From Utricularia gibba (taxonomy: Eukaryota > Streptophyta > Magnoliopsida > Lamiales > Lentibulariaceae): DNA of 64,000 nucleotides. The translations under genes were made by a program, and so were the position numbers. This document shows, piece by piece, positions 24,101-33,207 of the stretch; within the stretch, counting starts at the first letter, position 1; each line of letters starts with the position of its first letter. The stretch spans positions 1,798,001 through 1,862,000 of the forward strand of contig NEEC01000007.1 of NCBI GenBank assembly GCA_002189035.1, given 5' to 3'. Under the pieces are notes generated by a model, which made no database searches, was not told where the DNA came from, and worked only from the letters and a program-made list of their open reading frames with translations.

Positions 24101-25549
24101 GATTTCTCACGCTACAGAAAACTCACAGAGGCATCGACGTGGATTCAATGTGGATGGAGAAGATTGGCTGCAAGCAGAATGCTTAAAGATTTGAGAGTTG
24201 TAAGGATTGGAGAGCTGAGATGTTTCTTGCTTCATGAATTCATCGTTCTACAAGAAAATATGATCTTAAACTCTTCAATAATGCATATCTAAAATACCTG
24301 CAGGCAGCAAGAGATGCGGGTACACTTCAAGAGATAAACTTGAAGCTCCGAAAGCGTATTGAGGAGTTGATTCTCGATTTACAGCTGGAAAGACGGCTGA
24401 GGGTTAATCACTGCCTTGTTCTTGTTTTTTTTTTTTTTTTCCTTCTATACTAAAATGAAGTGTGGAAGGTTGTGATTCACTTATGTAACTCAGAATGAAT
24501 CACGGAGTGATGATGGTTCCATTATTTTTTATAAGTATAATATTTTTCTTATTAAGAGCGATCCATTTCCAGGCTGAAATGGAAGTGGCCAAGGACCTGG
24601 AATTAAGTAAGCTGCAGAACTCCGTGGCAGCTTTGCATAGGAAAGTACATGGAACAGGGAGTGATTCCTTTGAAGAATGTGCAACTCATCCTGGAGCAAG
24701 TGAACACTCACTTACCATAGAAACACCGGATCGAGTCGAAGACTTGGAGAAGATGAGAAGTTTGACATCAGAAGTAGGAAGTATGAAGGTACTGCTCCCC
24801 CTTGTCATGTTATTCTTGTTAACGAACCCCCTAAACAATTTGTCTTCGTAGATATTATTGCAATCTGCAAAACAACGTGCTGATGATCTAGAGAAGATGT
24901 ACTTCGAAGTACTTGAATCCGAAGATAGAAAGCGTCAGAAGTTAGAGGAAACTGAAATAAGAGTTCATCAGCTTCAAGAATCTCTGAATAGGTACCCACA
25001 AGTCTTGTAAACTATCATTGTACTTGTATCTTCTATAACCCAGTTCGTTTTCATCATGGTATGGAATATTGTCATATGTTTGTAGACGTATATACACTAT
25101 GTGCTGTTTAGTTAATAATAAATACGATCTAGTGTGCCTCAGGATGATGTACAGCATGTCAGGCCAATTTTCGGAGCTAAAAATGTTATTATGCACAACC
25201 TCAACCAAGATGGGTTCAGCTTCGGGACGTGATCCTAAGGATGTGGATGATGATATTTATGCGTCATCTGATTCATCTACAGATTCTGATTTCACTTTTC
25301 CAGCCCCAACCTCAATCCCTGAAAATTTCTCCACTTTCAGTTCGGGTGCCTTCCAGCTCATTGTACAGGATCTCTCAACACATGAAAATTCCGGTGAGTC
25401 AAACACTCCATTGCTCCCTCATTGAATGCATACGATTCTTGGGCTATGTTGTATGAAGATAATGCTACGATGCTTTTTTTGATGATGCCTTGCTGTGTGC
25501 AGGGAGGGGAGAACGCGATAGGGAAGGGGCATTTGATGACTATTTCTGA
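18107..25549 (+). CDS. Class XI myosin heavy chain, short-tailed form
   Basis: Proposed exons: 18107-18109 (ATG alone, tentative), 18517-18648, 18987-19130, 19314-19459, 19545-19701, 20045-20103, 20449-20608, 20685-20834, 20916-21052, 21138-21284, 21388-21489, 21572-21629, 21707-21808, 22178-22215, 22298-22424, 22491-22673, 22783-22914, 23007-23116, 23210-23270, 23486-23663, 23800-24005, 24080-24199, 24304-24402, 24573-24788, 24852-24991, 25143-25393 and 25503-25549, for 1134 residues. The motor domain shows the P-loop GESGAGKT (157-164), switch I NNNSSRFGKF and switch [10 protein letters not shown]. Six IQ motifs for light-chain binding lie at about 750-880, followed by a broken coiled coil to about 1050. 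The protein then ends in a Ser/Asp-rich segment and GAFDDYF. The globular cargo-binding (DIL) tail of most class XI myosins is absent. The motor should move along actin; cargo linkage is unclear. Confidence 0.88.
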
Positions 25550-25834: not shown

Positions 25835-28608
25835 TCAGTCCGACCCAGGGAAACCTTTTATTACATCTCTAAGAGCATGGTAATGGCTATCACACTTGTG
25901 ATCTGAAATAAGGTTGCTGGAAAGGAGTATTCTGGTAGGGAGTTCACCAGGTCGGCTCTTCAACATGGTGAAATATTCAACGGCAGGTATGTCTGAATTT
26001 TCAGCCTCAAAGCGTCTCTGCAAGTAGTACACAGTCCCTGGTACAAACAGATCATCATCTACCTTCTTTGCGACCTTCCCTTGGTCACTATTCCAACTGA
26101 CCTCACGGTCAGAAGCTTCATCTACAGGAAAATATGCAAATTGAAAACATATATAACTTGGAAACACTGCGTCTAGTAGATAAGGAGAACTAGGTAGTAA
26201 CCGTAGAGTTTCGACTGCCCTCTAATCTTGGTATATTCAGCAAGTTTCCCAGATATGTCTTGTATGGATGAAACAACTTGCTTAGCACTGGAAACAAGCT
26301 CAAGGATGCCCTTCCAATCTTCTCTACTAAAGACACTTACCCTGCAAGATCATTTAAACATTCAAGACATGGGATAGCTCACGAGCCAATCTGAAAGTAC
26401 GGGATTGAGATGCTCAAAAAATGAATATTTCCATTACCAATCTGTTCCAACAATTTCATTCCGCAGTCTTTTTACAGAAGCAGCGCTGAGTCTTGGGACT
26501 ATGTCCCCCTACATGAAAAGGTAATATAAGATTAACAGTTTGGTGCCATCGACTTTGAAAATGATATATATACTAGAGAAGCATGCCTGCATCACCACTG
26601 TAGTCACAAAATCAGAACAGCTTTCAGCAAGCTCCTTAGAAACACAAGGAGGTGTCCCATATGTAATCGCAGTGACAACATCAGGACTGAATCCAAGCTC
26701 TATGGATGACTTCCTCCTAAGCATGATAGCAAGCAAGGCAGCAATCGCACCTCCAAGAGAGTGGCCAACAAGCCTCAATCTAAAACCCTGCCAAATCATT
26801 AGTCTAGCAAACACTGTGTTATGAAATGATGAGACAGGATAAAATTGACAGTGGAATGAAGAGATTGTTAAACAAACCTTGTGTTTGTCCAGGTACCACC
26901 TGATGGTATCTATCTCATAGGTGAGAAACCAGCGAGATGCCTCTGCGGTTCCAAAATGGGTGGAATAGCCTTCAAAAGTGACTTCTTCATGGCCAGAGGA
27001 TACAATATCTGTAATAATGTCGTAGACATTTTGTGTTCCACGGATACAAAGAATGACAAGTTTCTTCCGTCTATCGATGCCAATATAATAACCAGGCCTC
27101 AACACACTTGATCGTCTTGTGAACTTCACTACATCTTTTACTCGAAGCATGCTACTCCTAGCGACACCAGCAGCATTATCCCTATAAGAGCCTCTTGCAA
27201 GTTCTAAATGGTATATAAGTTCATGAACCTAAAACACCAAAAGACAATATGTTTAGATGTTATTTAAAATAAGAACAATGCGTGCCTTCACAGAAAAAGA
27301 AGATAAAGGTGGACAGAATTGATTTGCCTACTCAAAAATATGGAACTGACGAAGATCAAAGTGCGTGGCAATTCATCTCAAATTGCTAACTATTTTACAA
27401 ACTCATAACATTTTTATGAGACAGGCCACGCATATAGTTAACTAGGCTTCAAGTTCTAAACATTACCTACATTGGAAAACAAGATAATCCTCATGGTATG
27501 AGAAACTCAATTTTAAATCATCTGATCATTTGCACCTTAGTTTCAAGTACTACAGTTATCACGAAAATGCTGAAAGGACAATTCTCCATTTTTTTTCTGT
27601 GGTATCTGGCAACGTTGCTCATAAACTTCTGCAATGCTCATCAGTTGCAAGGGTTTATAAAGGTAATTAGGCACTCACTAATGATTCCGAGGTGATGACT
27701 TCCCCCTTCACATCATCCACGGAACTCTCAGAAGCTTGCCTAAGATACAAGAGATATAATCCTATTGTAAGGTCACTCAGAGTCCAATCCTGAAACCCAA
27801 GTTTGCTCCTTTGTATGCTGGCAAATATTTCAGCAACCGATCTATCTGTAGGCGGGAGCTTGCTCGATACTCCACTTCCTAAAAACATTGACTCTCTGAA
27901 TAAGTTTTTTGCTGAACCTAAGTGAAAGTCAATAGTAAAGCTACTAGATATTTCTCAAGCTACGCCATTATAAGCATCCACTCTTTGAGCTCAAAAGGAA
28001 ACTAACTCAAAGAAATCCGCATCCTCAAGCGTCAGTAATAAAAACATCCCAAACGTCCCGATTTCAGGGTAAAACATGACTTTCCAAAGAAGAAGCAGCT
28101 AACAAAAGTCACAACATGAAGTTGGAGAGAAACTAAACCTGCGGGAAGCACCCACTTGTACAACTGCAAAGCGGGTTCAAGAGCTTTAGAAAGCCAAGTA
28201 ATTTCAGGCTTCCACCTGTAGCTATAAAGGCCCGAATCTTCGTTATCCACGACAGGGGTAACACTGCCGGGAATGTCTTCCAAGCTCTTCTCTTCCTTCG
28301 AATTGGACCACTTCAATCTACTCAAAAAAGTGTGCTCGTACTTCTTACATAAGTCTTTGGACAATCTCAAGCTTCGTCGAAAATCTGCGAACAAAAAGCA
28401 AGCTTAGTTGCGCGATGGATGATCATACGTACACAAGGAAACAGAAGTATAAAAGACCGACCCATTTTCAAGAATCATTTTTCTGCCCCACCACCATGCA
28501 ACCGATCAAAGAAGACCAGAAATGTATGCACAGCGACAGATTCATGGTGAAGGCAGCCTTGATCAGAACCCGCTTGAAATAGTGGTAGCAACCGCCGCCG
28601 TTCGCCAT
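25835..28608 (-). CDS. Class-3 (alpha/beta hydrolase) lipase, diacylglycerol-lipase-like
   Basis: Exons on the minus strand: 28384-28139, 27878-27679, 27228-26878, 26787-26587, 26508-26438, 26341-26202 and 26121-25835, with phases that chain. A first exon from the ATG at 28608 must end in phase 1; the only fitting GT is at 28502 (exon 28608-28503), so this exon is tentative and the total would be 533 residues. The N-terminus is hydrophobic (FTMNLSLCIHFWSSLIG). The central region has the lipase_3 features LVILCIRGTQN and the nucleophile elbow GHSLGG, then AITYGTPPCVS and VPRLS. The family cleaves acyl chains from glycerolipids, often as sn-1-specific diacylglycerol lipases; the substrate here is not known. 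The donor at 26586-26585 is GC rather than GT. The predicted product appears intact. Confidence 0.85.
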
Positions 28609-29259
28609 TCCGAAGATGTTCAACGGTGGCCCAAAATCTCAATTAACGGATGGGCACAAGCTCACCCAATCACTCGGCCCGTCTAAAATACACGGCCCAG
28701 TAACCGTTTGTTAAAATAACTGTTAGAATATATTAATTTGATCGTATTTAACCCAATAATTTTCATGAATGATTCACAACCTACAACAATTTAAACATCA
28801 TTTAATTACAGTTTTTTAAACATTGGACTCAAGTTATTTTGAATTGAGCCTGAATGGGGCATATCTTTTTTTAAATAATATGTATAAATGCAAATAAAAC
28901 ATTAAAAATACAAGAGATTATCAAAATGGATGATGATGAAAGTTTTACTGGATTATTTTGGTCTTTATCTCTATTCCCATGATTGTGATTTTTGAATTGA
29001 TTTCATTATCTTTTAAATAACTTCTTGATATTAAAGAATATTTTTTTGGAAATTATTTGATTCACATGATATGGTGGATAAAAAGAAAAATCAATTGATT
29101 GTAGCTTTAAACTGGCACACAAATTAATTGCCAAAGGAAGAAAAAGGTCTTCGCGAAATTGAAAAAATAATATTAAGAATTTTCAAGAGGGAAAAGTTTA
29201 CAATTCTTGCTACGTTAAAAAAATCAAAGAATGAATTCAGAAGCTGAAAAGATCAGCTT
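28609..29259. other. AT-rich intergenic stretch
   Basis: This is the lipase upstream region (28609-28700) and AT-rich DNA up to the edge of the GDSL inverted repeat. No gene or transposon end was recognised. Confidence 0.5.
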
Positions 29260-30631
29260 TGATTCCTCAGGAGAAGGCGGTTGGCAGGGCGGTGCAGTTG
29301 AGAGCTTGGAGGGTGGGTATGATGAGGCTTTGCTCGATGCGGACGGCGATCTCCTGTGTGAAGTGAATGCCGTCCCAGAACATGTGGCGTTCGGGATGGG
29401 AGCATGCGGGCACTCCGGCGCTGCCGCAGAATCTGTTGCTGCTGTAGTTGTACGCGCCTCCGATCCCGCAGCAGGTTCTCAGGGCGGTGGCTGCGTGTCC
29501 CTCTGCGCATGAACCAATTCAATGGTAAATAAATGATGAGCATCTATGCTGACAACAGATCCAGAATGAATGCGAGGGCTTGCCTTGATTCAGTCTGTCG
29601 AGGATTTGGAGGAAGCCCTCGTCGAAGGCACCGTAGATGAGGGTGACGTTGGGAACTCCCTGCCCAACTCGTTGATGGCTTGCCGGAGGTAGTTGTTTTT
29701 CATGGTGATGAGCCTGTTGACGCTGCTGAGGCATCCCAGGCGATCGTAGGCGGTGGGGTCGCCGGAGGGCATCGCGGTCAGGATGTAGGGGAAGCAACCC
29801 AGAGGGGCGCTGCCCGGGATGACGATGAGCCTTGCTCCCATCCCGATGAGTTGCTGCGAGTAGGGAGATTATATCAGTATGAAGGAATGGCCACAACTGG
29901 TATTTTTTGTGTGACGAAAAAGGGATTGATTAGTTACCCTGGTGGCCTGGATCTGTTCTCTGGTGATGGGGCCGACGTAAGACTGCGCTTCCTGAAGAGT
30001 CTTTCCCTGCGTGAGGGCGTACCCGATGTCGTTGGCCTCGAGGTCTCCCAGCAGCACCAGCGAATTGGCGAGCCTGTCAGCGATGCAGTCGGAGGAGTTT
30101 GCGCCGCCGCAGACGGACCGGAGGTGGGTTTGGAACCATTCGAGTTGAGTGGCGAGGGAAGTGGCGTAGCGTGGGATCCGGATGCCTCTCCGCGAGAAGA
30201 AGCCGTGGTCCATCACCGGACTCCTGGCGACCGAGAAGATGACGCCGTTGCTGGAGTTGGCCCTTTCGGAGAGAGAAGGAACGATATCCGGGAAGCCGAA
30301 GTCGAAAGCCGCGAAGTCGAAGTCGACGAGGCCGTCAGACCATCGCCCGTTGGGGGTGCCGGGGTACGTCCGCCCGTAGGGTGCACGTGTGGGCGGGAGT
30401 GAATCCTGAATGAGGACGGAGTTTCCGACGTCGGTGGCGCCGTCCCCGAAGTGGTAGAGGTAGGGAAATGGGCACACGGGATTGCCACCAGTCCGTGAAG
30501 AAGCAACCGCAGCGCTACTACAAGTACTCACAGCAACGATCGCGAAGAGGAGAAGGAGCTGAGAGGAGAAACCCATCATCATCTGAACTGATCTGATCTG
30601 ATCTGCCGTTGGTTGTTGAGGTTGAATGATG
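29260..30631 (-). repeat. Left arm of GDSL inverted repeat
   Basis: Read on the minus strand, this arm matches 31001-32378 on the plus strand. It covers the 5' leader, three exons and both introns, and ends seven bases past the stop codon. By eye the first ~930 bases from the ATG are identical, including all 84 bases of intron 1. Differences start at a missing C (29651-29653). After it I count one substitution in exon 2, at least four in intron 2 and four third-position changes near the end of exon 3. The leader has one fewer AGATC unit than the right arm. The spacer between arms is 369 bases. Confidence 0.93.
29267..30582 (-). pseudogene. GDSL esterase/lipase-like gene, copy A, frameshifted
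   Basis: Exons 30582-29938, 29853-29584 and 29502-29267 mirror the intact copy at 31055-32371. Exon 2 is 270 bases instead of 271: a run of four C in copy B is three C here (GGG at 29651-29653 on the plus strand). The frame then shifts and meets a stop at 29592-29590, giving about 300 residues that lack block V with its Asp-His pair. The N-terminal 215 residues, including a secretion signal and FGDGATD, are identical to copy B. A TATATAT box lies on this strand at 30661-30655. Either this is a recent pseudogene or the lost base is a sequencing error in a C run; both remain possible. Intron 2 has a GC donor. Confidence 0.82.
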
Positions 30632-30654
30632 CAGTGTTCATGAAATGGTCGAAC

Positions 30655-30661
30655 ATATATA
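30655..30661 (-). promoter_or_regulatory. TATA box of GDSL copy A
   Basis: TATATAT on the minus strand, about 75 bases before the ATG at 30582. Sequence shared with copy B begins 24 bases downstream, near the expected transcription start. Confidence 0.6.
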
Positions 30662-30970
30662 GGCATGGAGGACTCGAAGAAGTCAACTTTCGTTTCATGG
30701 ACCGGTGACTGTCTTTTTCCATGTGTTTCTCTATCCAACCGCGTTAGAATTTGGACAAAAATACCTAATCTATTCATCCCAACTTGTAACCCAGTTGCTA
30801 GATTCAACCCATTGACAAATGTGAATGAGCATTCAATGCGAGGATTTGGTCATCTTCTTGGTCTTCAGACGCGCCCAAGCTCCGGCCGTGTTTCGGGTTC
30901 CTACACAGACACGGAGAATAGAACAGGTCCATGTCCATGCCCTTCCAGGAAAAGCCTTTCTATGGAATAC

Positions 30971-30977
30971 TATAAAT
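30971..30977 (+). promoter_or_regulatory. TATA box of GDSL copy B
   Basis: TATAAAT, about 80 bases before the ATG at 31055. The shared repeat begins 24 bases downstream, the same spacing as in copy A, although the surrounding promoter sequences differ. Confidence 0.6.
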
Positions 30978-31000
30978 TCCACGCACCCCCAGTTCATCTC

Positions 31001-32378
31001 CATCATTCAACCTCAACAACCAACGGCAGATCAGATCAGATCAGATCAGTTCAGATGATGATGGGTTTCTCCTCTCAGCTCCTTCTCCTCTTCGCGATCG
31101 TTGCTGTGAGTACTTGTAGTAGCGCTGCGGTTGCTTCTTCACGGACTGGTGGCAATCCCGTGTGCCCATTTCCCTACCTCTACCACTTCGGGGACGGCGC
31201 CACCGACGTCGGAAACTCCGTCCTCATTCAGGATTCACTCCCGCCCACACGTGCACCCTACGGGCGGACGTACCCCGGCACCCCCAACGGGCGATGGTCT
31301 GACGGCCTCGTCGACTTCGACTTCGCGGCTTTCGACTTCGGCTTCCCGGATATCGTTCCTTCTCTCTCCGAAAGGGCCAACTCCAGCAACGGCGTCATCT
31401 TCTCGGTCGCCAGGAGTCCGGTGATGGACCACGGCTTCTTCTCGCGGAGAGGCATCCGGATCCCACGCTACGCCACTTCCCTCGCCACTCAACTCGAATG
31501 GTTCCAAACCCACCTCCGGTCCGTCTGCGGCGGCGCAAACTCCTCCGACTGCATCGCTGACAGGCTCGCCAATTCGCTGGTGCTGCTGGGAGACCTCGAG
31601 GCCAACGACATCGGGTACGCCCTCACGCAGGGAAAGACTCTTCAGGAAGCGCAGTCTTACGTCGGCCCCATCACCAGAGAACAGATCCAGGCCACCAGGG
31701 TAACTAATCAATCCCTTTTTCGTCACACAAAAAATACCAGTTGTGGCCATTCCTTCATACTGATATAATCTCCCTACTCGCAGCAACTCATCGGGATGGG
31801 AGCAAGGCTCATCGTCATCCCGGGCAGCGCCCCTCTGGGTTGCTTCCCCTACATCCTGACCGCGATGCCCTCCGGCGACCCCACCGCCTACGATCGCCTG
31901 GGATGCCTCAGCAGCGTCAACAGGCTCATCACCATGAAAAACAACTACCTCCGGCAAGCCATCAACGAGTTGGGCAGGGAGTTCCCCAACGTCACCCTCA
32001 TCTACGGTGCCTTCGACGAGGGCTTCCTCCAAATCCTCGACAGATTGAATCAAGGCAAGCCCTCGCATTCATTCTCGACCTGTTGTCGGCAGAGATGCTC
32101 ATCATTTATTTACCATTGAATTGGTTCATGCGCAGAGGGACACGCAGCCACCGCCCTGAGAACCTGCTGCGGGATCGGAGGCGCGTACAACTACAGCAGC
32201 AACAGATTCTGCGGCAGCGCCGGAGTGCCCGCATGCTCCCATCCCGAACGCCACATGTTCTGGGACGGCATTCACTTCACACAGGAGATCGCCGTCCGCA
32301 TCGAGCAGAGCCTCATCATACCCACCCTCCAAGCCCTCAACTGCACAGCCCTGCCAACCGCATTCTCCTGAGGAATCA
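31001..32378 (+). repeat. Right arm of GDSL inverted repeat
   Basis: This is the counterpart of 29260-30631 in opposite orientation. It starts at CATCATTCAACC and ends seven bases past the stop codon of copy B. The leader has four AGATC units against three in the left arm. Introns are retained in both arms, so the duplication was DNA-mediated and not via mRNA. Confidence 0.93.
31055..32371 (+). CDS. GDSL esterase/lipase-like secreted protein, copy B, catalytic Ser replaced
   Basis: Exons 31055-31699, 31784-32054 and 32136-32371 encode 383 residues, the usual size of plant GDSL proteins. A hydrophobic signal peptide (LLLLFAIVAVSTCSSA) points to secretion. Block I reads FGDGATDVGNS, so the residue that is the nucleophilic Ser in FGDS is Gly48. 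Block III reads LEAND (181-185) where GGND is usual, while block V WDGIHFTQ keeps Asp349 and His352. The family hydrolyses esters of lipids, polysaccharides or small metabolites in the wall or vacuole. With Ser and the oxyanion Gly changed, this may be a non-catalytic member or use another chemistry. Intron 2 starts with GC. The gene diverges from its near-identical frameshifted twin. Confidence 0.9.
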
Positions 32379-32717
32379 CATCATTTTTTGTCCTTCTCTT
32401 TAACCATTCTTTCATTAGTTCTAATGTAAAATGACGTGCTTAATGGAATGCATTCATTCACATGTTCGAGTTGCCCTGTTCCCATTCCAAAGAAACCGAG
32501 ACTGCCGCCACATCACGATGTTCTGAAAAAACCACTATTCTGTGGGCTACTTGCAGAGCGAAGACATGTCTAATCCAGGTCTAGATCCATAACCCCAAAG
32601 AAAAAGATGCACACAAAGTCCATCACGAGGGGTAGCAGCAGAAGCGATGTTCGTACGAAAACCGAAAACGATAAACCAACTCGGAGTTGGGGGCGAACCG
32701 GTCGGAATTCAGTGAAG
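32379..32717. other. 3' flanks of GDSL copy B and RZ-1-like gene
   Basis: The two genes converge here. The sequence holds their untranslated ends; no further gene is seen. Confidence 0.45.
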
Positions 32718-33207
32718 TCAATACCGGTCGAAGGAAGGTGGCCGGCCTCCCCTTCTTGGGCGGTCGTAGGGGCCAGGTCTCTCCCTGTAGTTTCTGCCTT
32801 CGTATCTTGGAGGTCCACCGGCGCTGCCGCGGGCGCCTCCTTCACGGTCGTAACCCCTCTCCTTGCCATATCCATTCTGTGGGTATCCTTCTGGGGCGCC
32901 GTACCTGTCATCCGGAAAACGGTCTCCGGGCGGCGGGTACCTGAACAATCATAAGAATTGATATGGTGGATAAGGTGTGGGGGTTGGCTCGGCCATGAGA
33001 ATTAAGCATGTACCTGTCGTTGAAATATCGGTCTCGGTTTCCAAATCGATCATCTCTGCTTTCGAAGCGATCCCTGTCGCCATAACGGCCCCTGTCGAAT
33101 CGGTCGTTTACATATCTCTCACGATCATCCAGGTAGCGATCCCCATGGTTACCAGGCCCTCCGAACCTGGGGCGTGGGGGGGAGAAAGGGCGACCGCGAC
33201 CACGACC

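Follow-up and report, generated by a model that had tools for sequence, protein, structure and literature searches.

Palindromic gene pairs that evolve in concert have been described in Drosophila (PMC3924832). In the Amy pair (Amy-p and Amy-d, and likewise Amy1 and Amy2 of D. kikkawai) the concerted evolution is confined to the coding sequence, and the flanks evolve independently. The Hsp70 genes form two palindromic pairs, Hsp70Aa/Ab and Hsp70Ba/Bb. Each pair is internally homogenized, and the duplicates are older than the homogenization. A precedent for the protein is found in Arabidopsis, where MVP1/ERMO3/GOLD36 (At1g54030), a member of the GDSL family, has a glycine in place of the block I serine and, according to the available text of its two reports, is a pseudoenzyme whose function does not depend on esterase activity (PMC3498303, PMC4757993).

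The locus described here, a pair of GDSL-like genes of Utricularia gibba named A and B, is similar to Amy in that the genes are linked as a palindrome, their bodies co-evolve and their flanks evolve separately. It is similar to Hsp70 in that there are two palindromic pairs, A/B and C/D, each homogenized within itself, with an older duplication. The properties by which the Amy and Hsp70 cases are recognized were found in the two loci of this one genome: inverted linkage, a likeness within each locus that exceeds the likeness across loci despite the greater age of the pair, and independent flanks. Unlike Amy, A/B is a plant gene pair with two introns, both of which are inside the homogenized tract, and its evidence comes from a sister locus that arose by duplication within the same genome, with a reversed spacer, and not from other species. 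Unlike Hsp70, which is also a different gene in a different organism, the promoters of A and B have diverged from each other. Thus the mechanism is already known from Drosophila, and the new elements are a plant host, introns within the tract and a spacer reversal that can be traced. A search of the literature on GDSL genes or gene conversion in Utricularia found nothing concerning the A/B locus. The sequence comparisons suggest, with a probability of about 0.92, that A and B are an old divergent pair in concerted evolution by gene conversion between the inverted arms.

The window, a 64 kb stretch corresponding to C213:1798001-1862000, is located 1.8 Mb inside a 3.7 Mb contig of the 100.09 Mb genome assembly, which has 516 contigs. 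Direct alignment and a repeat search show that, as the original prediction had it, the two genes are inverted and divergent (head-to-head). Each has three exons. Arm A occupies positions 29260-30631 on the minus strand and consists of the leader, three exons, two introns and the stop codon with seven further bases. Arm B occupies 31001-32378 on the plus strand and its reading frame, of 383 amino acids, is intact. Exon 1 of B (31055-31699) encodes the signal peptide and the block I motif FGDGATDVGN and is identical to 30582-29938 of A. It is followed by an 84-nt GT-AG intron (31700-31783), exon 2 (31784-32054), a second intron (32055-32135) that is predicted from the sequence to be of the GC-AG type (CAAG/GCAAGC), and exon 3 (32136-32371), which contains block V (DGIH) and the TGA stop codon at 32369-32371. 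The A/B alignment places the exons of A at 29938-30582, 29584-29853 and 29267-29502 on the minus strand, with TGA at 29269-29267. As assembled, exon 2 of A has a frameshift caused by a 1-bp deletion in a run of C at about 29654. The spacer between the arms is 369 nt long (30632-31000) and contains two unlike divergent promoters. No further inverted repeats of at least 60 bp were found in the 64 kb window. Long antisense open frames run opposite the GC-rich exons of both copies, at 29647-30402 on the plus strand (251 amino acids) and 31235-32068 on the minus strand (277 amino acids). They are probably a by-product of codon bias.

The two arms differ by nine substitutions and two indels, and the identity of the gene bodies is 99.3%. 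One indel is a 5-bp GATCA unit in the leader; the other is the C-run deletion in exon 2 of A. Exon 2 has one substitution, intron 2 four and exon 3 four, and all of the coding substitutions are synonymous. The original prediction described intron 1 and the silent sites of exon 1 as identical. Exon 1 and intron 1 are indeed identical, but intron 2, with its four substitutions, is not. The longest identical run comprises 942 columns. The differences are clustered outside this run with p ~1e-5 relative to an even spread, which rules out chance as its origin. Identity starts at 30631 and 31001, 24 bases past the TATA element of each copy (TATATAT at 30661-30655 on the minus strand for A, and TATAAAT at 30971-30977 on the plus strand for B), and stops seven bases past each TGA; both limits had been predicted correctly.

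A genome search revealed a second divergent pair on the same contig, 487 kb away and 97% like A/B. Copy C is located at C213:2316837-2318205 on the minus strand and copy D at C213:2318258-2319600 on the plus strand. Synonymous differences number 5 of 278 between A and B and 0 of 277 between C and D, compared to a Ks of 0.052 - 0.056 between the two pairs. The two loci are still homologous in the outer flanks on either side (window 28952-32890 and also 24862-25117), and the flanks match copy by copy. Alignment and trees show that the 3' flank of A (28952-29259, minus strand) is orthologous to the C flank and has diverged from its B counterpart, and that the 3' flank of B (32379-32890, plus strand) is orthologous to that of D. 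Because the outer flanks are orthologous on both sides, the pair was duplicated as a whole and both loci are derived from one ancestral inverted pair. A lipase class 3-like open frame (26509-27228, minus strand) lies within about 3.8 kb that the window locus has and the sister locus lacks.

The gene bodies give the opposite grouping. In a four-way alignment the bodies have 35 columns with the A+B and C+D grouping and 0 with the A+C and B+D grouping. From position 32379 onward the counts are 0 and 26, respectively, and the switch occurs at the first base past the near-identical stretch. Trees of the bodies and 3' flanks, for which other family members served as outgroups, were compared by likelihood (AU) tests. 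Forcing A together with C in the body tree costs 101.9 units of lnL (AU p 0.0006), and forcing A together with B in the 3' flank tree costs 78.8 units (AU p 0.0007). The support for the A+B node of the body tree is moderate (86/82), and the A+C alternative is rejected. The pair therefore existed before the segmental duplication that created C/D, and the bodies, including introns, were afterwards homogenized within, but not between, the pairs. Each 3' flank retained its own ancestry, and the promoters of the two copies are unlike. This conclusion on homogenization within each locus is drawn from one assembly, in which two paralogous loci take the place of orthologs. There is no sign of conversion between the two loci: introns and silent sites of A/B are about 5 - 6% apart from those of C/D (five columns in the 84 nt of intron 1), and the flanks are 3 - 13% apart. 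Judged by these alignments, homogenization is confined to adjacent inverted partners.

More distant relatives, with 76 - 79% DNA identity, were found by the genome search on C244, C451 and C3. Those on C244 are part of a palindrome (C244:1903255-1919898) with 5.35-kb arms that are 99.94% identical, and each arm holds a divergent gene pair whose members are 94.8% alike. The palindrome on C451 (C451:5638375-5663974) has 11.3-kb arms that are 99.97% identical. It also carries a gene with the canonical GDSL block (FGDS), and a third family copy is found about 32 kb further on. Apart from the outermost bases, the arms of these two palindromes differ only in four 1-bp G/C homopolymer lengths (C244:1905264 and 1904151; C451:5639919 and 5646829). 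Differences of the same kind occur at window position 29654 and at C213 ~2317928, and similar 1-bp deletions break the frame in A, in C and in one C244 copy. Since all 1-bp indels within the family's repeats are G/C homopolymer lengths, the frame-breaking deletions are probably residual long-read errors, and true pseudogenization of A and C is less likely. A truncated copy, E3 (C244:1897675-1898883), has a body nearest to that of copy E2 (42 sites versus 4) and a 3' flank nearest to that of E1 (32 versus 10), which is a second, though weaker, indication that bodies have been exchanged (AU p 0.066). The 5' side of E3 is joined to the apparent 3' end of a copia-type retrotransposon.

The regions just outside the limits of identity were compared across the family, and the matches were scored as z values against dinucleotide shuffles. 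A TATA element before the leader is common to the family; in A and B, as in the copies on C451 and C3, it is 24 - 25 bases away from the ATCATTCA-like start of the leader. The A promoter matches its relatives on C3 and C244 with z values of 7.9 and 8.1, respectively, compared to 1.8 for its match to the B promoter. The B promoter scores z 18 against that of C and, more weakly, z 3.1 against that on C3. The core of the family's 3' UTR (CATTCTTTGATT...AACGTAACAGCAAATGTAA-like) can be recognized separately in A and in B. The 3' flank of A is nearest to that of C244 copy E1 (z 4.0) and the 3' flank of B to that of the C451 relative (z 3.1), compared to a z of 1.3 between A and B. The original prediction was right in that the promoters and flanks are unlike. 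They are not unrelated, however, because each copy has a diverged version of the family promoter and 3' UTR, the resemblance to other family promoters being clear for A and weaker for B. The ancestral duplicated unit thus included these regions, and the limits of identity are the limits of conversion and not duplication breakpoints. The suggestion that conversion was limited to the transcribed unit is correct at the 5' end, near the likely start of transcription, but is not exact at the 3' end, because the tract stops just past the stop codon and excludes the family-conserved 3' UTR.

A recent inverted duplication was one of the two explanations originally offered. It would require breakpoints directly beyond the TATA box and the stop codon and no exchange since, and it accounts for the 99.3% identity of the bodies and for the unlike flanks. 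The sister pair, however, shares both outer flanks copy by copy, which makes the pair older than the locus duplication, and the diverged family promoter and 3' UTR run on past the identity limits at both copies. The conflict between flanks and bodies refutes this explanation unless identical breakpoints arose twice independently, and it is very improbable. Gene conversion in an older pair, the other explanation offered, is the one that the conflicting trees support. The sister locus, its reversed spacer, the frameshift of A (probably a sequencing error) and the loss of the catalytic serine had no place in the original prediction. Alternatively, the identity could be an assembly artefact, with just one copy being real, or with polishing having falsely homogenized two diverged copies. 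The sole coding lesions are indeed 1-bp C-run deletions, and all four of the 1-bp indels within the family's larger palindromes are G/C homopolymer lengths, as in unpolished long-read errors. Nevertheless, each of the two separate pairs has its own, internally consistent set of variants (35 columns), the flanks are unique, a typical long read is longer than an arm and the window is far inside its contig, all of which make an artefact improbable.

Strong selection on the RNA or DNA sequence itself, in place of conversion, might also maintain introns, leader and silent sites identical over 942 columns. The same introns and silent sites are nevertheless about 5 - 6% apart between A/B and C/D (Ks 0.05), and Ks reaches 0.65 - 0.9 for other family members. 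Between the loci, then, the sequence can change freely, but within a pair it cannot, and the chance that such selection is the explanation is negligible.

Conversion alone does not account for the 5' side of the sister locus, where C lacks an A-type promoter and an extra step is needed, be it inversion of the spacer or a long tract followed by deletion. The spacer of C/D is only 110 nt long (C213:2318152-2318261) and matches, in reverse orientation, the half-spacer 30947-31054 (plus strand) of the window in 103 of 108 columns. As a result, the B-type TATAAAT promoter is aimed at C, and D is left without a family promoter. The spacer is precisely the part that a crossover between inverted arms would reverse, and inversion by crossover followed by a deletion is therefore the preferred and probable history of C/D. 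A long conversion tract could instead have brought the B-type promoter from D to C, with a later deletion and no crossover. The same arrangement, in which the leader and promoter on the D side are missing, can be reached in this way. However, the tract would have to enter promoter DNA without recognizable homology and with one end free, whereas a crossover yields the reversal in a single ordinary step; the long tract is a possible but rather unlikely route.

Concerted evolution by conversion could have proceeded as follows. A break in one arm would be repaired from the other arm. Selection on the coding sequence would hold the bodies similar enough for strand exchange. Promoter and 3' UTR would have drifted past the limit of exchange and become excluded, which would place the ends of the tract close to the TATA/start region on one side and directly beyond the stop codon on the other. 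At the sister locus at least one exchange may have been resolved as a crossover, which would have reversed the spacer and swapped the promoters between the copies, and a later deletion would have taken away the other promoter. The simplest interpretation of the limits is that they are set by similarity: selection on the coding sequence maintains bodies that can still exchange, the leader and the short introns go along with them, and the flanks have become too different to take part. It is also conceivable, though doubtful, that the inverted pairs of this subfamily are a natural promoter-swap system. Exchange between the arms would maintain a common protein sequence, crossovers would reverse the spacer and so attach either copy to either of the two different promoters, and a mechanistic constraint, for instance from promoter nucleosomes or R-loops, would halt conversion where transcription starts.

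The protein has a Lipase_GDSL domain (PF00657, E 3e-14, above the curated cut-off) and appears to be secreted, with a predicted signal peptide in exon 1. Block I, FGDGATDVGN, has a glycine at the position of the catalytic serine, where it is aligned to the serine of FGDSLSDIGN in 5xtu. The block III asparagine (EAND) and the block V DxxH motif (FWDGIH) are present in the translation and conserved in paralogs. In a DNA-pattern search of the genome the FGDG block was found at 16 places, 15 of them in the A/B family, and the FGDS block at 57. The Ka/Ks ratios among paralogs, 0.07 - 0.16, show that the serine-less protein is under constraint (purifying selection). Two distant family members, C412:1568044 and C508:310940, also have glycine at this position (GDGVTDVGN), and the loss of the serine is therefore old. 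The block I sequence suggests a likeness to ERMO3/MVP1/GOLD36, in which serine is likewise replaced by glycine. The Arabidopsis protein, unlike A/B, belongs to the ER-body/PYK10 context of Brassicaceae, and the available text of its reports mentions neither an inverted pair nor conversion.

The A/B locus is an unusually clean plant case, in which the genealogies of flanks and bodies conflict at a sharp boundary. The later duplication of the entire pair is what allows the conflict to be demonstrated in a single genome. The case warns against dating tandem or inverted duplicates by their near-identity. At this locus, direct measurements can be made of how far conversion tracts reach, of spacer inversion and of promoter divergence. 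As for the proteins encoded by the family, their sequences make them a candidate set of constrained, serine-less GDSL pseudoenzymes.
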